Notes: generated by a model from the letters alone, not told the origin. Positions 1 through 5,589 are shown, counted from the stretch's first letter. The stretch: DNA of 5,589 nucleotides from Candidatus Eiseniibacteriota bacterium (GCA_025453925.1 JALOPK010000233.1:1-5589), one strand, 5' to 3'. Translations and numbers: made by a program.

Positions 1-924
1 GTCGATGCCGATGGTGAGTCTGAGGTATTCTACGGAACCGGAGCCCGCGACTCGGTGCCCGGCACGCTCTTCTGCGTGGATGGAAACGGCGACGAGCGAT
101 GGCGCTTCACCGGTGGATTCCGGGATGATCAGCCGAGGCCTTTCGAGCTCACCAACACGTTCAATGCCAGTGGTCCCTTCGTGCGTGATCTCGATCATGA
201 CGGGTTCAGCGAGGTCCTCGCGGTGTTCAACCACGCCCCATACTACGCGGGCCAGCTTGCCCTGCTCACCGTTGATGGCACGTATGTGAGCAGCTTCTGG
301 AATCGCGGCCATTTCTTCGCTGCTTCGTTGGGCAGCGACCTCAGGGCCATGGCGTTCGCTGATATCGATCACGATGGTCTCGACGAGATCCTGGCCGGTG
401 GGAGCAACAACGGCACGAACACGGCCGTCTTGGCGATCCTCGATCCGAGGGCAGTCAGAGGAGTGGGGCCACGCTCCCTCGCGGATACGCTCAATGCCGC
501 GTGGCAGAGCTATATCGTCTTCCCCGCCTGTCCGCCCCTCGAGCAGACGGCCGGCACCATTGCCAGACTGGGCATCGGCACCGTTCAGAACGTTCGCTGG
601 GAAGGCCAACCGGTAATCCGGGCCGAGTCGAAAGGGTGGCTACCCGATACCAGCTGGGTGGGCTTCACCTACCACCTGGACTACGACCTGCAGCTCGTGT
701 TCTTCAACATGGACGATCAGACCAAGAAGTGGATCCGCAGAGCGCGAGCACAGGGTCTCACCGATGCGGATGTCGACTCGCCCGAGTTCTGGCGGATGAT
801 GACCGACATCCGAGTCATCCCCGGAGATCCGCGGTTGCTGCTGCCCCCGGGCGAACCGGGCGCACGTGACGCGGCGGTCGCAACCCGACGCGACGGCACG
901 CAACGCGGAGGGGCGATACCGTGA
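1..924 (+). CDS. FG-GAP/VCBS repeat protein, C-terminal part (5' end outside window), paralogue of the next gene
   Basis: The frame is open from base 1, so the gene begins upstream; the GTG at 55 lies inside conserved sequence and is not the start. The visible 307 residues contain calcium-loop motifs of the FG-GAP/VCBS type: VDADGESE at residues 1-8, DLDHDGFSE near 62-70 and DIDHDGLDE near 121-129, each followed by a short hydrophobic strand. After about residue 150 comes a second conserved region (WQSYIVFP, then SPEF and VIPGDP near the end). From residue 1 the protein aligns without gaps, at least through ERWRFTGGFR, with residues 482 onward of the following gene, and it shares AGQLALL, YVSSFW and LDPR with it. 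By homology this part would be extracytoplasmic and bind calcium or a ligand. The missing N-terminus may carry a membrane helix and a protease-like domain as in the neighbour, but that cannot be seen. The last 25 or so residues are Arg/Ala/Gly-rich and go beyond the homologous end. Function unknown. Confidence 0.85.
   Translation, partial: VDADGESEVFYGTGARDSVPGTLFCVDGNGDERWRFTGGFRDDQPRPFELTNTFNASGPFVRDLDHDGFSEVLAVFNHAPYYAGQLALLTVDGTYVSSFWNRGHFFAASLGSDLRAMAFADIDHDGLDEILAGGSNNGTNTAVLAILDPRAVRGVGPRSLADTLNAAWQSYIVFPACPPLEQTAGTIARLGIGTVQNVRWEGQPVIRAESKGWLPDTSWVGFTYHLDYDLQLVFFNMDDQTKKWIRRARAQGLTDADVDSPEFWRMMTDIRVIPGDPRLLLPPGEPGARDAAVATRRDGTQRGGAIP
907..911 (+). promoter_or_regulatory. Shine-Dalgarno site for the Lon-like/FG-GAP gene
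   Basis: GGAGG lies 9 nt upstream of the GTG at 921, inside the end of the preceding gene. The GTG overlaps the upstream TGA (GTGA, 921-924). The site and overlap support this GTG as the start and suggest translational coupling between the two paralogues. Confidence 0.7.
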
Positions 925-3212
925 CCCCCTTGGAGACCGGGCCTTCCTCCGGGATCGATATCGCCTACTCCCCCACCCAACTCGACCGCATCCATGGGGA
1001 GCTGATCGCCTCGCTGCCTCCGTCGAATCCGAAGGCGGCGGTGATTCGCCTCATGGAGCACCTCGGGCGATTGCCCTCCGTTGCGGCACATCCCCAGACC
1101 CTTTACTTCCACGTCGCCACCCTCAGTGAGCTGTGCGCCCGAGTACTCACGCCGATACCCCTTTCCAACCATGTCGAGCTTCTCTGCAGCCTCGTGCGCA
1201 TCCTGGACTCGGCCATGCAGACCCCCGCCGCCAGACAAGTCACCGCGTTGCCCAAGGCTGCGTCGCGGCTCCGACTGCTCCTCGCCGCCGAGTACGCTCT
1301 TCGGGGCGCTCAAGGGGCCGCTCCTGTGACGCCTGGGTCCACCGTTGAGCCTGCAGATGCGGCCGACGAGCACGCCACTCGTCTACAGCGCCTGATGGCA
1401 TCCTCCGAAGGCCGGGAAGTCGAGTGGCCGCTGCACTTCCGTGAACCCGAAACCTGCCTCCCGCGGCACGCCATCCTGACGGTGCTCACGGATGGAGCTG
1501 CGATCCCGGGGCACTGCCGTGAAGGCTATCTGGCCGCATTGGAGGTCACGGTCACGCTGCGGGGGAGGCATGAGAAAGGCTGCGTGGTCAGAGGCAGGGA
1601 TGCGCGCGGCGAGGATGTGATCCTGGGAGATGAGTTCAGAGACCTGGTGCACGAGGCCGTTGACCGGGCGGTGGGGCTGCTGGGACCGTTTGCGCAGGAC
1701 AGAGTTCGAAGGCTCCAGGCCCTCGTTGACGTGACGCTCCAGAGTCCTGGGCTGGTGACCGAAGTGCACGGCCGTTCCCTTCTTCTGCCGCTCGTGCTGG
1801 TCCTCGTCCACGCAGTCGCCGAGCAGCTCAACCTGGCAGCCACGGTGAGCTGGGATGCGGGCATGGTCTGGACCGGAGACGTCGATGCCCACGGGAATCT
1901 TCAGTCGGTGGCAGGGCTTCCGGAGAAACTGGCGCGGGTGTACCACTCCCGCGCCGGCGGTTTCGCCTATCCCGCCGCGGACGACCTCGCACTGCGCAGC
2001 ACGCGACATGGCCTCTCAGGCCGGAATCGCGACCTACTCCTGCTCCCGGTCATCAATCTCGTCTACCTGACCGCGCCGGGCGGAGCCGCTACCATCAAGC
2101 CGAGAAGCCTGCTGACCAGGGGCGCCTTCCTGCTGCGAAAGGTCAGCAGGCCCTTGGGTATCGCAGGCACGATCGTGGTCAGCGTCTTTCTTCTCGCCGC
2201 GGCCTACGCGGCGCCGCGGCTCTCTTCCTGGCTCGACCGAACGCCCACTGCCGCGTTCGTGACGGCGGACAGCGCTCACATCGAGCTGCGCAACTCGAGG
2301 GAACGCACGCTGCGGGTCTTCCCGATTTCCCACACCAGCACCCCCTGGGCTGTTATCGCCGATCTCGAGGGTGATGACCGACACAATATCCTCGTCGGCA
2401 CATCGTGCTCGGATCCTGAGCCGGGCTCAGTCTGGTGTTATGACCAACGGGGGCGTGAGCGGTGGCGGTTCACCGGAGGGTTCCGCCCCGATGAGCCAGC
2501 TCCGTATGCGCTGGAGAATCGGTTCGCCGTGGCAGGCATCTCCTGTCATGACCTCGACCGCGATGGACGCGACGAGATCATCATCGGGCTCACGCACAAC
2601 CCCTACTTCGCCGGTCAACTGGCCCTGCTGCGATCCGATGGCAGCTACGTCTCCAGCTTCTGGCATCCCGGCCATCTCAGCCTGTACCGAGGGCCTGACT
2701 TTCGTGATGTCCCGCTGTTCGTTGATCTGGACCGTGACGGCTACGACGAAATCCTGATCGGCGCCACCAACAACAGGCTGAACCGGGCGGCGCTGATCGT
2801 CCTTGACCCTCGGAGCGTCAGGGGCAAGGGATACCAAGGACCCGGTGATCCTCCTGATCCTCAGTGGCAGAGCTACGTGGTGTTCCCCCGACTCGCCGAG
2901 GTGGAGGAGGCCCTCGACACGCCCAGGTTCCATGCGGGCATGCTGTCCATGGAGATGATGGACGGCCGCCCATTGATTCGAGTCAGCCTCATTGGCGCGC
3001 TTCCAAACTTGGGTCGCACGAATGTGTTCAACTACTGGTTGGACTTCGACTTGCGGGTCGTCAGGTTCTACTCGGGCGATCCCTTCAAGACTTGGGGAGC
3101 GTGGGCACTGCGCAAGGGCCTCCTGGACGTCGACGTTCGATCACCTGAGTTTGAGGGCTTTATGCGCCAGATCGAAGTCATCCCCGGCTCTCCGGAGTTG
3201 CTCAAGCCCTGA
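921..3212 (+). CDS. Membrane protein with Lon-like (S16) protease domain and extracytoplasmic FG-GAP region
   Basis: A 763-residue protein. Residues 1-130 are mostly helical and unrecognised; 131-165 look like a linker. Residues about 170-385 resemble the Lon protease domain: HGRS (283-286) falls where Lon has its serine motif DGPSAG, and TGDVDAHGNLQSVAGLPEKL (317-336) aligns without gaps to the Lon segment TGE...GGLKEKL, which makes S286 and K336 the candidate catalytic Ser/Lys pair. There is no AAA+ ATPase module (no Walker A). A basic stretch (K393 to R410) precedes one hydrophobic helix (about 412-431), so the N-terminal part should be cytoplasmic and the rest outside. Residues 479-625 carry FG-GAP-like repeats with calcium loops DLDRDGRDE (544-552) and DLDRDGYDE (602-610); the first loop (481-489) is degenerate. 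Residues 645-763 form a C-terminal domain shared with the upstream paralogue. An outside sensor controlling an inside peptidase is a plausible role but is inferred. The GTG start is supported by an SD site and the GTGA overlap. Confidence 0.85.
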   Translation: MTPLETGPSSGIDIAYSPTQLDRIHGELIASLPPSNPKAAVIRLMEHLGRLPSVAAHPQTLYFHVATLSELCARVLTPIPLSNHVELLCSLVRILDSAMQTPAARQVTALPKAASRLRLLLAAEYALRGAQGAAPVTPGSTVEPADAADEHATRLQRLMASSEGREVEWPLHFREPETCLPRHAILTVLTDGAAIPGHCREGYLAALEVTVTLRGRHEKGCVVRGRDARGEDVILGDEFRDLVHEAVDRAVGLLGPFAQDRVRRLQALVDVTLQSPGLVTEVHGRSLLLPLVLVLVHAVAEQLNLAATVSWDAGMVWTGDVDAHGNLQSVAGLPEKLARVYHSRAGGFAYPAADDLALRSTRHGLSGRNRDLLLLPVINLVYLTAPGGAATIKPRSLLTRGAFLLRKVSRPLGIAGTIVVSVFLLAAAYAAPRLSSWLDRTPTAAFVTADSAHIELRNSRERTLRVFPISHTSTPWAVIADLEGDDRHNILVGTSCSDPEPGSVWCYDQRGRERWRFTGGFRPDEPAPYALENRFAVAGISCHDLDRDGRDEIIIGLTHNPYFAGQLALLRSDGSYVSSFWHPGHLSLYRGPDFRDVPLFVDLDRDGYDEILIGATNNRLNRAALIVLDPRSVRGKGYQGPGDPPDPQWQSYVVFPRLAEVEEALDTPRFHAGMLSMEMMDGRPLIRVSLIGALPNLGRTNVFNYWLDFDLRVVRFYSGDPFKTWGAWALRKGLLDVDVRSPEFEGFMRQIEVIPGSPELLKP

Positions 3213-3517: not shown

Positions 3518-4369
3518 TCATGAGAACCCGCGACCGCTCCCTGCGCCCATTAGCGGCGCGAAGGCCTCCCCCAAGGACGTGAACGAGTAGGTGTCAAGCA
3601 GCCAGTGGAGCAGTGATTCGAAGCGCCGCTGACGCCACAGCGTCACCCATCTCCCCGGTTCGACGCCCGGCGTCGGAGGGAGGGTGGCGAGCAGTTCCCA
3701 CGGGTGGAGATAGAACATCGAGGGCAGGCCCCGGCGCTCGTTGGCGCGCACCCAGAACCGGATCAGCCATCGCGGCCAGACCCGCAGGTACACGCTGCCG
3801 CCGTAGGGCATGCGCAGGAAGGGCGACGTCGTGGCGGGGATCTCCCAGAGACCGGGGGCCAGCTCGAAAGGCCCGCGGGGTGCCCCCGCCCAACCGGCCA
3901 TGGCGAATCGCGACGGCAAGAGACTGCTGTCGACTCGATACCCTCGCCGGGCCAGCACCTCGGTCATCCACCGCGTGTCGGGGCACAGGCCGAAGCTCGG
4001 GCCCCGGAAACAGACGGGCCGGATTCCGCAGGCCCCCGCAATTGCCGCCTCGGCCCGCTGCAGCTCTTCGTCGAACTCTTCGGGCGTGAGTTCGCACAAG
4101 GCCGCGTGCCCATGCGTATGGCAGCCGATCTCGTGTCCCGCCCCCGCGATAGCGGCTATGAGATCCGGAAACCTCTGCGCCAGTTCCCCGACGATGAAGA
4201 ACGTCGCCCGAATCCTTCGCTCCCCCAGCATGTCGAGGAGCCGCTCAGTGGGCTCTTGGATCAGCGAGATGGACGAATCCGCGCCGCCTCGGATCAAGAG
4301 CGGGTGATGCCAATCCTCGACGTCGATGGTGAGGGCGTGGAGGGTGCCGCGGAGAAGTCCACGGTTCAC
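3518..4369 (-). CDS. Polysaccharide deacetylase, NodB-type (XrtA/PEP-CTERM exopolysaccharide-locus family)
   Basis: A 283-residue carbohydrate esterase 4 (NodB fold) protein predicted to remove N-acetyl groups from a polysaccharide with a bound divalent metal. Visible motifs are TIDVEDW (14-20, first acidic/metal motif), ATFFIVGELA (55-64), GHEIGCHTHGH (78-88, with the metal-binding H84 and H88), FRGPSFG (121-127), DSSLLP (147-152) and LHPWEL (221-226, with the late-motif His). The DVED form of motif 1, the HPWE motif and the closing LLHWLLDTYSFTSLGEAF stretch are typical of deacetylases from exosortase-associated exopolysaccharide loci, which usually lack a signal peptide, as here. No exopolysaccharide or exosortase genes are visible. 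The GTG start lies inside a heptamer repeat and has no Shine-Dalgarno site. An in-frame TAA 6 nt upstream excludes a longer form, and the first conserved motif begins at residue 11, so there is little room for a shorter one. It sits 82 nt downstream of tsaB on the same strand and may share its transcript. Confidence 0.88.
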   Translation of the reverse strand: MNRGLLRGTLHALTIDVEDWHHPLLIRGGADSSISLIQEPTERLLDMLGERRIRATFFIVGELAQRFPDLIAAIAGAGHEIGCHTHGHAALCELTPEEFDEELQRAEAAIAGACGIRPVCFRGPSFGLCPDTRWMTEVLARRGYRVDSSLLPSRFAMAGWAGAPRGPFELAPGLWEIPATTSPFLRMPYGGSVYLRVWPRWLIRFWVRANERRGLPSMFYLHPWELLATLPPTPGVEPGRWVTLWRQRRFESLLHWLLDTYSFTSLGEAFAPLMGAGSGRGFS

Positions 4370-4513
4370 GGTTTACGGTTCACAGTGTGTAATGAGGGAA
4401 GAATGCTGGATGCTGTCCGCTTCAGGAATCCCTGCACGGCGAGTCGCTCCGCTATGCTCCGGAGACGGGGGGAGGCTGGCCCGACGGTGAACCGTGAACC
4501 CTAGACGGTGAAC
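4361..4513. repeat. Inverted pair of heptanucleotide (ACGGTTC) repeat clusters
   Basis: The left cluster is three tandem heptamers: ACGGTTC (4361-4367), ACGGTTT (4368-4374) and ACGGTTC (4375-4381). The right cluster holds the same unit inverted (GAACCGT at 4489-4495, variant GAACCCT at 4496-4502) and GACGGTGAAC twice (4483-4492 and 4504-4513), 21 bp apart, which is three heptamers. The longest exact inverted match is GGTTCACGGTT (4363-4373) with its complement at 4490-4500. About 100 bp lie between the clusters, including the palindrome CTCCGGAG (4457-4464). The unit could be a dispersed genomic repeat, a small non-autonomous element, or a transcript-level stem. The left cluster contains the deacetylase start codon; the right one is inside the tsaB reading frame. 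Confidence 0.7.
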
Positions 4514-5189
4514 TCGTACTCGCGCGCGGAAACGGAGGCACGGTCAGGTAGATGCCCTCAACGTCCTGCGGATTCCCCGGCTCCCCACTCTCGAGGCGGT
4601 GCCATGCAATGCGGGCGATGATCGCGGCCCGGGGGATGTTCGCCTCGGGCTGTGCGACAAGGGTGCCGGTCAGTCCGTCACACACCTCAAGGATCCTCAC
4701 CGCCGCGTCGCCGATGATGATTCCTTCCCCTGCCCACAGGCCATTGAGTTCCTCCGGACTCGCCATTCTCGGGGATATGCGTTCTCGCGGCGGAAAGACC
4801 GTCGTGTCGTAGGCCGAAAACGCGACATGCCCGGTACGCCGGCCGGACTCCTGAAGAACATAGACCAACGGACGGGCGTCCACCGCGGCCGCCATGGCCA
4901 GGGAGCTGGCCACCCCGAGCAGCGGAATCCGCCGGGACGCGGCGATCCCCTGCAGCATTCCAAGCCCGATTCTCAGGCCGGTGTACGATCCGGGTCCCAG
5001 CCCGGCGGCGCAGGCCGTCAGATCAGCAGGCGACACTTCGGCGCCGGCCAGCATGGAGGCGATGAGCCCCGGAGTGCGGGCGAGCATCCGCCGGTCCAAC
5101 AGCACCGTACATTCGTGGAGAACACCCGCGTCGGCCCACAGTGAGGCGGCCATCCACCTCGTCGAAGTGTCCAGCGCGAGGATCATCAT
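4452..5189 (-). CDS. tsaB: tRNA threonylcarbamoyladenosine biosynthesis protein TsaB
   Basis: A 245-residue protein of the ASKHA fold. TsaB is the inactive partner that scaffolds TsaD (with TsaE) to transfer the threonylcarbamoyl group to A37 of ANN-decoding tRNAs, in the cytoplasm. Diagnostic motifs are ILALDTST (3-10) and GLGPGSYTGLRIGLGMLQG (63-81), followed by GVASSLAMA (92-100) and a closing EGIYL (211-215), where the family normally has a YLR-type ending. The ATG at 5189 overlaps the tsaE stop (ATGA, 5186-5189), so the two are probably coupled; a second ATG follows at once. The tail from 216 on is Pro/Ser-rich, unlike TsaB, and residues 226-236 (SPSRVHGSPSG) are encoded by the heptamer repeat. 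After L215 a different frame reads DRASVSAREYEFTV and stops at TAG 4503-4501, so a one-base frameshift near 4545 is possible and the natural end may be 4501. Confidence 0.93.
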   Translation of the reverse strand: MMILALDTSTRWMAASLWADAGVLHECTVLLDRRMLARTPGLIASMLAGAEVSPADLTACAAGLGPGSYTGLRIGLGMLQGIAASRRIPLLGVASSLAMAAAVDARPLVYVLQESGRRTGHVAFSAYDTTVFPPRERISPRMASPEELNGLWAGEGIIIGDAAVRILEVCDGLTGTLVAQPEANIPRAAIIARIAWHRLESGEPGNPQDVEGIYLTVPPFPRASTSSPSRVHGSPSGQPPPVSGA

Positions 5190-5589
5190 GACCGAAGTCT
5201 CGCCGCGAGGCCCGGCGGCCCCGTGATGGTGATACGCCGGGCGTCATCTTCGATTGAGAGCGTCACGGTCCACGTCGCTTCAGGAAGATAGCCCTCGCCC
5301 CGCTCGGGCCATTCGATCACCAGAATCCCTTCGGGAGCCATGGCGACGATTTCTTCCGCGTCCCGCGGCCGACGGATGCGATAGAGATCCACGTGGTGCA
5401 TCTCCTTGGCCCCCTGGTAGGACCGCATGAGGGTGAAGGTGGGACTCAAGACATCCTTGGGATCGGCAAGACGAAGCCCCTCGGCAATCCCCTTTGCCAC
5501 GACGGTCTTCCCCGCGCCCAGGGTCCCACTCAGATAGACCACGTCGCGATCATGGAGAAGCCCCGCGATCCCTTGCCCAAGCTCGAGGG
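5186..5589 (-). CDS. tsaE: tRNA threonylcarbamoyladenosine biosynthesis ATPase TsaE (5' end outside window)
   Basis: The visible 133 residues cover nearly the whole of this small ATPase, which works with TsaB and TsaD in t6A synthesis. Motifs, counted from the window edge, are Walker A GTLGAGKT (21-28), SPTFTLMRSY (48-57), HVDLYRI (65-71) and VIEWPERG (90-97), all hallmarks of the family. The GTG at 5542 would give a 118-residue protein, but the frame stays open to the window edge and the upstream codons read LGQGIAGLLHDRDVVYLSG, which fits the usual TsaE N-terminus. The true start is therefore beyond 5589; judging by the family's usual length, only some 10-25 residues are missing. The stop overlaps the tsaB start as ATGA, a common tsaE-tsaB arrangement. 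Confidence 0.93.
   Translation of the reverse strand, partial: LELGQGIAGLLHDRDVVYLSGTLGAGKTVVAKGIAEGLRLADPKDVLSPTFTLMRSYQGAKEMHHVDLYRIRRPRDAEEIVAMAPEGILVIEWPERGEGYLPEATWTVTLSIEDDARRITITGPPGLAARLRS

Follow-up and report, generated by a model that had tools for sequence, protein, structure and literature searches.

A Lon-type S16 domain joined by one membrane helix to an FG-GAP propeller: a putative receptor protease whose relatives adjoin anti-sigma genes

The window, by which we mean the whole 5,589-nucleotide stretch of Candidatus Eiseniibacteriota DNA analysed here, carries a gene whose product combines a Lon-type S16 peptidase domain, predicted to be cytoplasmic, with a single transmembrane helix and an FG-GAP beta-propeller predicted to lie outside the membrane. 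Since a zinc anti-sigma factor is encoded next to its relatives, joined in two cases by a sigma factor, the receptor probably turns genes on by anti-sigma cleavage once its outer part senses a signal. We lean towards reading it as a transmembrane receptor protease that would cut the anti-sigma factor and thereby release an ECF sigma factor, a reading in which activity, substrate and ligand are inferred. At the level of sequence, the domain order, the predicted topology, the conservation of the active site and the operon linkage in relatives are established; proteolysis by the S16 domain, the anti-sigma factor as its substrate and what the propeller senses are inference only. The features of the gene and of the paralogue preceding it are as follows.

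1-924, + strand: 3′ part of copy A, the tandem paralogue; only propeller sequence is present, and the contig begins within this gene
921-924, + strand: GTGA overlap of the copy A stop and the copy B start, from the junction sequence
921-3212, + strand: copy B, gene for the S16, membrane helix and FG-GAP propeller protein, 763 aa, GTG start
948-1370, + strand: N-terminal helical region, residues 10-150, of no known family
1413-2105, + strand: S16 (Lon-type) peptidase domain, about residues 165-395, identified by profile comparisons, predicted cytoplasmic
1776-1778, + strand: codon of Ser286, in GRS, which aligns with the catalytic Ser of Lon
1872-1874, + strand: Thr318 codon (WTGD), aligned with the Thr of the Lon MTGE motif
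1926-1928, + strand: codon of Lys336, in LPEK, which aligns with the catalytic Lys of Lon
2154-2210, + strand: single transmembrane helix, residues 412-430, predicted N-in/C-out from hydropathy and the positive-inside rule
2241-3209, + strand: FG-GAP/integrin-like beta-propeller, residues 441-763, predicted extracytoplasmic, from Pfam and an AlphaFold model
2550-2585, + strand: calcium-type loop DLDRDGRDEIII, residue 544, from the sequence
2724-2759, + strand: calcium-type loop DLDRDGYDEILI, residue 602, with D602, D604, D606 and G607 invariant in alignment A1

The reading frame had already been proposed in the original prediction, whose coordinates describe a real gene; its GC content by codon position (0.69/0.48/0.77) is coding-like. 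The domains, their order and the topology of the 763-aa protein also came out as first read, on the evidence of the open reading frame, profiles and hydropathy. An orthologue in the same genus is 65% identical, and eight copies of the gene occur across three genomes of the window phylum. Scanning genome contigs and viral contigs with the window protein itself returned no full-length relatives. Residues 10-150 match no family in Pfam or PDB, and the comparison of N-terminal regions between the window phylum and a second phylum with relatives (that of genome G298) was borderline (hhalign E 0.011; best shuffle 0.033). In the window protein Pfam reports nothing but propeller families: it finds no AAA+ module, whose absence had been noted at the outset, and no SAVED or zinc anti-sigma domain. 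The cytoplasmic part contains no recognisable DNA-binding domain, and no signal peptide precedes the S16 domain.

Judged from profile comparisons, the S16 domain is a real but remote relative of Lon. Pfam does not report it when run on the window protein, and the Lon_C/S16 match that the original prediction had expected was therefore missing from this protein and appeared only once relatives were used; the claim of an S16 domain nevertheless stands, since a profile search does match Lon. Aligning 15 family members with 11 canonical Lon domains gave an hhalign E of 3.5e-9, against best values of 0.08 for 40 column-shuffled Lon profiles, 0.17 for unrelated alignments and 0.52 for a reversed profile. 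Window-phylum sequences alone matched Lon weakly (P 0.0023, probability 13%), and the match turned strong only after second-phylum relatives were added; the latter by themselves reach E 4.2e-9. The S16 regions of the two phyla were found to be homologous independently (E 3.2e-9), as were the propeller regions (E 5.4e-17), with shuffles at 0.03-0.1. A PDB search with a profile of seven window-phylum sequences placed Lon chains at the top (E 0.2), and the same profile also picks up Lon proteins in unrelated genomes; among the matches run through Pfam, nine have Lon_C as their best family, eight of these above the cut-off. With the 15-sequence profile, 48 of the 56 PDB chains matched by hmmsearch belong to the Lon family or to CalpL (best 8e-6): nearly all are Lon and CalpL accounts for two, the few weakest matches (near E 1) being unrelated. 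The CalpL match (7qda) is weak (E 0.021). One relative, in G239, exceeds Pfam's curated Lon_C cut-off (E = 1.7e-7).

Both motifs on which the S16 reading had first been built are present: the TGDVDAHGNLQSVAGLPEKL segment contains T318 and K336, and the HGRS motif upstream of it contains S286. The three residues are kept in 24/24 relatives checked and account for three of only 14 invariant columns in the 15-sequence alignment, in which the two phyla are about 15-18% identical. Around the serine, most relatives read GDSIG or GDSAG and Lon reads GPSAG. The window branch departs from Lon with GRSLLL and may for that reason have lost activity.

The only strong membrane helix spans residues 412-430, in agreement with the basic-then-hydrophobic helix noticed earlier, and net charge is +4 before it and +1 after. 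All seven window-phylum copies that include the helix region show the same charge bias. In the second phylum the helix was found in 11 of 12 proteins and the bias in 10 of those; the twelfth protein (L155) is shortened by masked bases. A conserved linker lies between the S16 domain and the helix.

The FG-GAP region scores over Pfam's cut-off in the window protein, as expected from the first reading, and an AlphaFold propeller model built from three sequences (pLDDT 69, pTM 0.70) matches propeller structures, among them integrin alpha heads. The DxDxDG loops said to follow the helix do occur, two of them clean (residues 544 and 602) and a third, at residue 481, degenerate. In G325 (L102 250-2091), as read from the sequence, a signal-peptide-like N-terminus, a von Willebrand-like segment and an Ig-like segment come with a propeller of the same family. 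An outside location of the window's propeller fits with this relative, since its propeller follows a signal-peptide-like N-terminus, and from the G325 arrangement the propeller is put down as a mobile, presumably outside, module. A propeller 27-30% identical to the window's, without an S16 domain, is encoded just after a rho-like gene on a contig of an acidobacterial MAG (L027 4491-5321).

The window's own sigma and anti-sigma genes are not visible, because its contig starts inside copy A. In the sister genome, contig G001:C170 carries, in order, genes for an ECF sigma factor, a protein of ~300 aa with an HxxxCxxC motif, the S16-propeller receptor and a type IX-secreted protein bearing a type IX sorting tail; the receptor gene overlaps the preceding gene by 14 bp. 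This is the only complete sigma/anti-sigma/receptor operon observed in the window phylum. In a separate lineage, contig G239:C51 has the order receptor, ECF sigma factor, anti-sigma factor. The frame of the G239 receptor (L207 4203-6395) is broken once, by an in-frame stop at 5721-5723, after which it continues through what remains of the propeller. The HxxxCxxC motif is found in 23/23 upstream partner proteins, which are without a membrane helix, and the best PDB matches of the partner-protein profile are anti-sigma factors: 3hug (which we take to be RslA), RsiW and DdvA. By these sequence criteria, the partner protein is a soluble zinc anti-sigma-type factor. Similar sigma/anti-sigma pairs are present in two further places: in G000 the contig breaks off within the anti-sigma gene, and in G002 the contig ends without an S16 gene having followed. 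Receptor paralogues outnumber sigma/anti-sigma pairs per genome in G000 and G001, and several paralogues may feed one pair in the window phylum.

A profile search detected the same anti-sigma family in 35/132 genomes of the second phylum, with a receptor-family gene directly downstream of the anti-sigma gene in 40/44 cases, counted as same strand and within 1.5 kb; over half lie within 25 bases. Two of the four exceptions are at contig ends and two are unexplained, and most of the larger gaps reflect receptors whose match began only partway along the gene. A full-length system also occurs in G173, outside both phyla by these searches. Relatives with an anti-sigma gene alongside come from at least three bacterial phyla. 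The gene 3′ of the anti-sigma gene in G298:C22 is recognised only by the wider family profile; the suggestion that it shares the N-terminal domain of the window protein was dropped, as against a profile of that domain it did no better than shuffles. The sigma position in this phylum (L150-L163) is taken by a conserved protein of ~360 aa, encoded first in the operon, for which the following is an example.

L151 10093-11187, - strand: gene for the ~360-aa protein, upstream of the anti-sigma gene

This protein has no Pfam or PDB match and no detectable similarity to sigma factors, and a hidden sigma factor at this position was not accepted (P 0.06-0.2). At the other end of the operon, the gene directly 3′ of the receptor carries a type IX (T9SS) tail in 9/10 second-phylum loci, compared with 3 of the ~133 other genes in those stretches (Fisher p about 4e-11). 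In L151 3990-6809 (-), L209 5283-6482 and L210 1255-2748 (-), the secreted protein beside the receptor ends, as read from the sequence, in dockerin-like repeats and not in a type IX tail.

It was originally proposed that an outside sensor is coupled to an inside peptidase. The invariant Ser, Thr and Lys and the anti-sigma neighbours support this proposal, which gains independent backing from those neighbours together with the ECF sigma factor in two lineages; proteolysis, ligand and calcium binding remain inferred. In the mechanism that we favour, the propeller outside the cytoplasmic membrane would bind a ligand or else a surface protein; the secreted protein whose gene adjoins relatives is a possible candidate. 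Binding would make the single-helix protein cluster differently or change its shape and so switch on the cytoplasmic S16 domain with its putative Ser286-Lys336 pair, which would cut the soluble zinc anti-sigma factor encoded in its own operon. The freed ECF sigma factor would then transcribe the operon and the surface cargo. Counting against this mechanism are the ~360-aa protein that is not recognisably a sigma factor, the GRSLLL motif, the unseen neighbours of the window gene, the excess of paralogues, the lack of an AAA+ unfoldase and the lack of any experiment. On the wider proposal, that one-helix receptor proteases in several phyla form a class in which the outward propeller has direct control of an inward Ser-Lys protease that destroys a separate soluble anti-sigma factor, so that outside signals reach transcription with neither the usual site-1/site-2 cascade acting on a membrane anti-sigma factor nor a second messenger, we are evenly divided.

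Other explanations may account for part of these observations. The most serious is that the S16 fold holds the anti-sigma factor and releases it on signal without cutting. RadA and ComM are non-proteolytic members of the wider S16 fold, which lends this idea some precedent, and the window branch has an altered motif after the serine (GRSLLL for GPSAG). A pure scaffold, however, needs none of the Ser, Thr and Lys that are invariant in 24/24 proteins from several phyla, and relatives retain GDSIG or GDSAG; we regard release without cutting as unlikely, though not negligible. A resemblance to Lon by chance, with the domain having another fold, would be in keeping with the silence of Pfam on the window protein and with a poor single-sequence AlphaFold model of the S16 region (pLDDT 34). 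It can hardly be maintained given a profile match at 3.5e-9 when shuffles reach 0.08 or worse, the match to Lon of the second phylum alone (4.2e-9) and a G239 relative above the Lon_C cut-off.

Two further readings keep the protease active and change its target. A membrane protease monitoring surface or type IX-secreted proteins, as quality control or cargo handling without signalling, would explain why a secreted cargo gene regularly adjoins the receptor gene; yet the S16 domain is predicted to be cytoplasmic, away from the exported cargo, and the fixed neighbour is an anti-sigma factor, which makes this reading improbable to us. We give slightly less credit still to a self-cleaving receptor, whose S16 domain would cut its own chain near the membrane to yield a cytoplasmic fragment that regulates transcription. 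S16-like Ser/Lys proteases are established as able to act in cis, and the S16 domain is tied to the helix by a conserved linker, but the cytoplasmic part is without a recognised DNA-binding domain and the partner that is conserved, an anti-sigma protein, is a separate chain. The reading we prefer remains cleavage of that partner.

In the closest characterised system, too, a Lon-type protease is encoded alongside anti-sigma and ECF sigma factors: CalpL, a Lon-domain protease found in type III CRISPR loci, senses cyclic tetra-adenylate via a SAVED domain and cuts the anti-sigma factor CalpT, freeing the sigma factor CalpS (PMC11417357, PMC12751052). By analogy, the window protein may work as CalpL does. 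It differs in that a membrane helix and an extracytoplasmic propeller replace the SAVED sensor, the S16 domain lies mid-chain and cleavage is only inferred. Of the Calp-type partners, the anti-sigma factor is found beside relatives and is not visible on the window contig; the ECF sigma factor is present in G001:C170 and G239:C51, and an unrelated ~360-aa protein stands in its place in the G298 phylum. The aligned Ser, Thr and Lys are common to the window protein and to Lon (LonA/LonB), which in contrast has an AAA+ module and no fusion to a membrane helix and propeller; Ser and Lys are about 50 residues apart in the window protein and 43 in Lon. The window protein is thus not CalpL, since it has no SAVED domain, nor Lon, since it has no AAA+ module. 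YlbL-type PDZ-S16 proteins are also membrane-anchored and without AAA+, but they carry a PDZ domain and no propeller, and their S16 domain is presumed to be extracytoplasmic.

Membrane anti-sigma systems such as RsiW and RseA have in common with the present one a zinc anti-sigma domain, an ECF sigma factor and an outside signal, whereas here the anti-sigma factor is soluble and the membrane sensor is a separate protein carrying its own cytoplasmic protease domain. FG-GAP propellers, including those of integrin alpha, are alike in their Pfam family, DxDxDG loops and modelled propeller fold; here the propeller is joined through one helix to a cytoplasmic S16 domain. In the PorXY-SigP control of type IX secretion in Porphyromonas, an ECF sigma factor is affected by PorA, a secreted protein whose C-terminus is a T9SS domain (PMC7712824); this control uses a two-component system and no S16 protease. 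We found no description of the S16-propeller arrangement in the open-licence literature, and the CRISPR-linked Calp system is the one case we found described in which a Lon domain acts on an anti-sigma factor. If our reading is correct, the Calp cutting logic would serve as a general receptor in several little-studied phyla, receptor proteolysis would be tied to surface and type IX-secreted proteins, and Calp would become one member of a broader group of sigma/anti-sigma/Lon switches whose sensors can be swapped. The reading makes direct predictions about substrate, active-site mutants and regulon.

The tandem paralogue had been omitted from the original prediction, to which the neighbourhood operon was not visible. 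The part of copy A on the contig is 46% identical to residues 484-763 of copy B, and the GTGA overlap makes translational coupling of the two copies likely; the same A-B tandem with the same overlap is present on contig G001:C182 of the sister genome. Two attempts to extend this neighbourhood failed: support for a decayed anti-sigma gene preceding copy A in G001:C182 was too slight (a single frame scored 69, and shuffles reached up to 60), and contig G000:C172, with a sigma gene and a cut anti-sigma gene, could not be joined to the window contig, as their ends do not overlap. Beyond copy B, the window encodes, on the opposite strand, the following gene.

3518-4369, - strand: polysaccharide deacetylase with DUF3473

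It is followed by genes at 4452-5189 (-) and 5186-5587 (-), which we take to be TsaB-like and TsaE-like, respectively, for tRNA threonylcarbamoyladenosine. A similar deacetylase gene also lies 3′ of the orthologue in G001:C209. Upstream of copy A in G001:C182, a gene pair was recognised by eye as similar to an MNT nucleotidyltransferase with a HEPN protein (L022 1777-2605, -).
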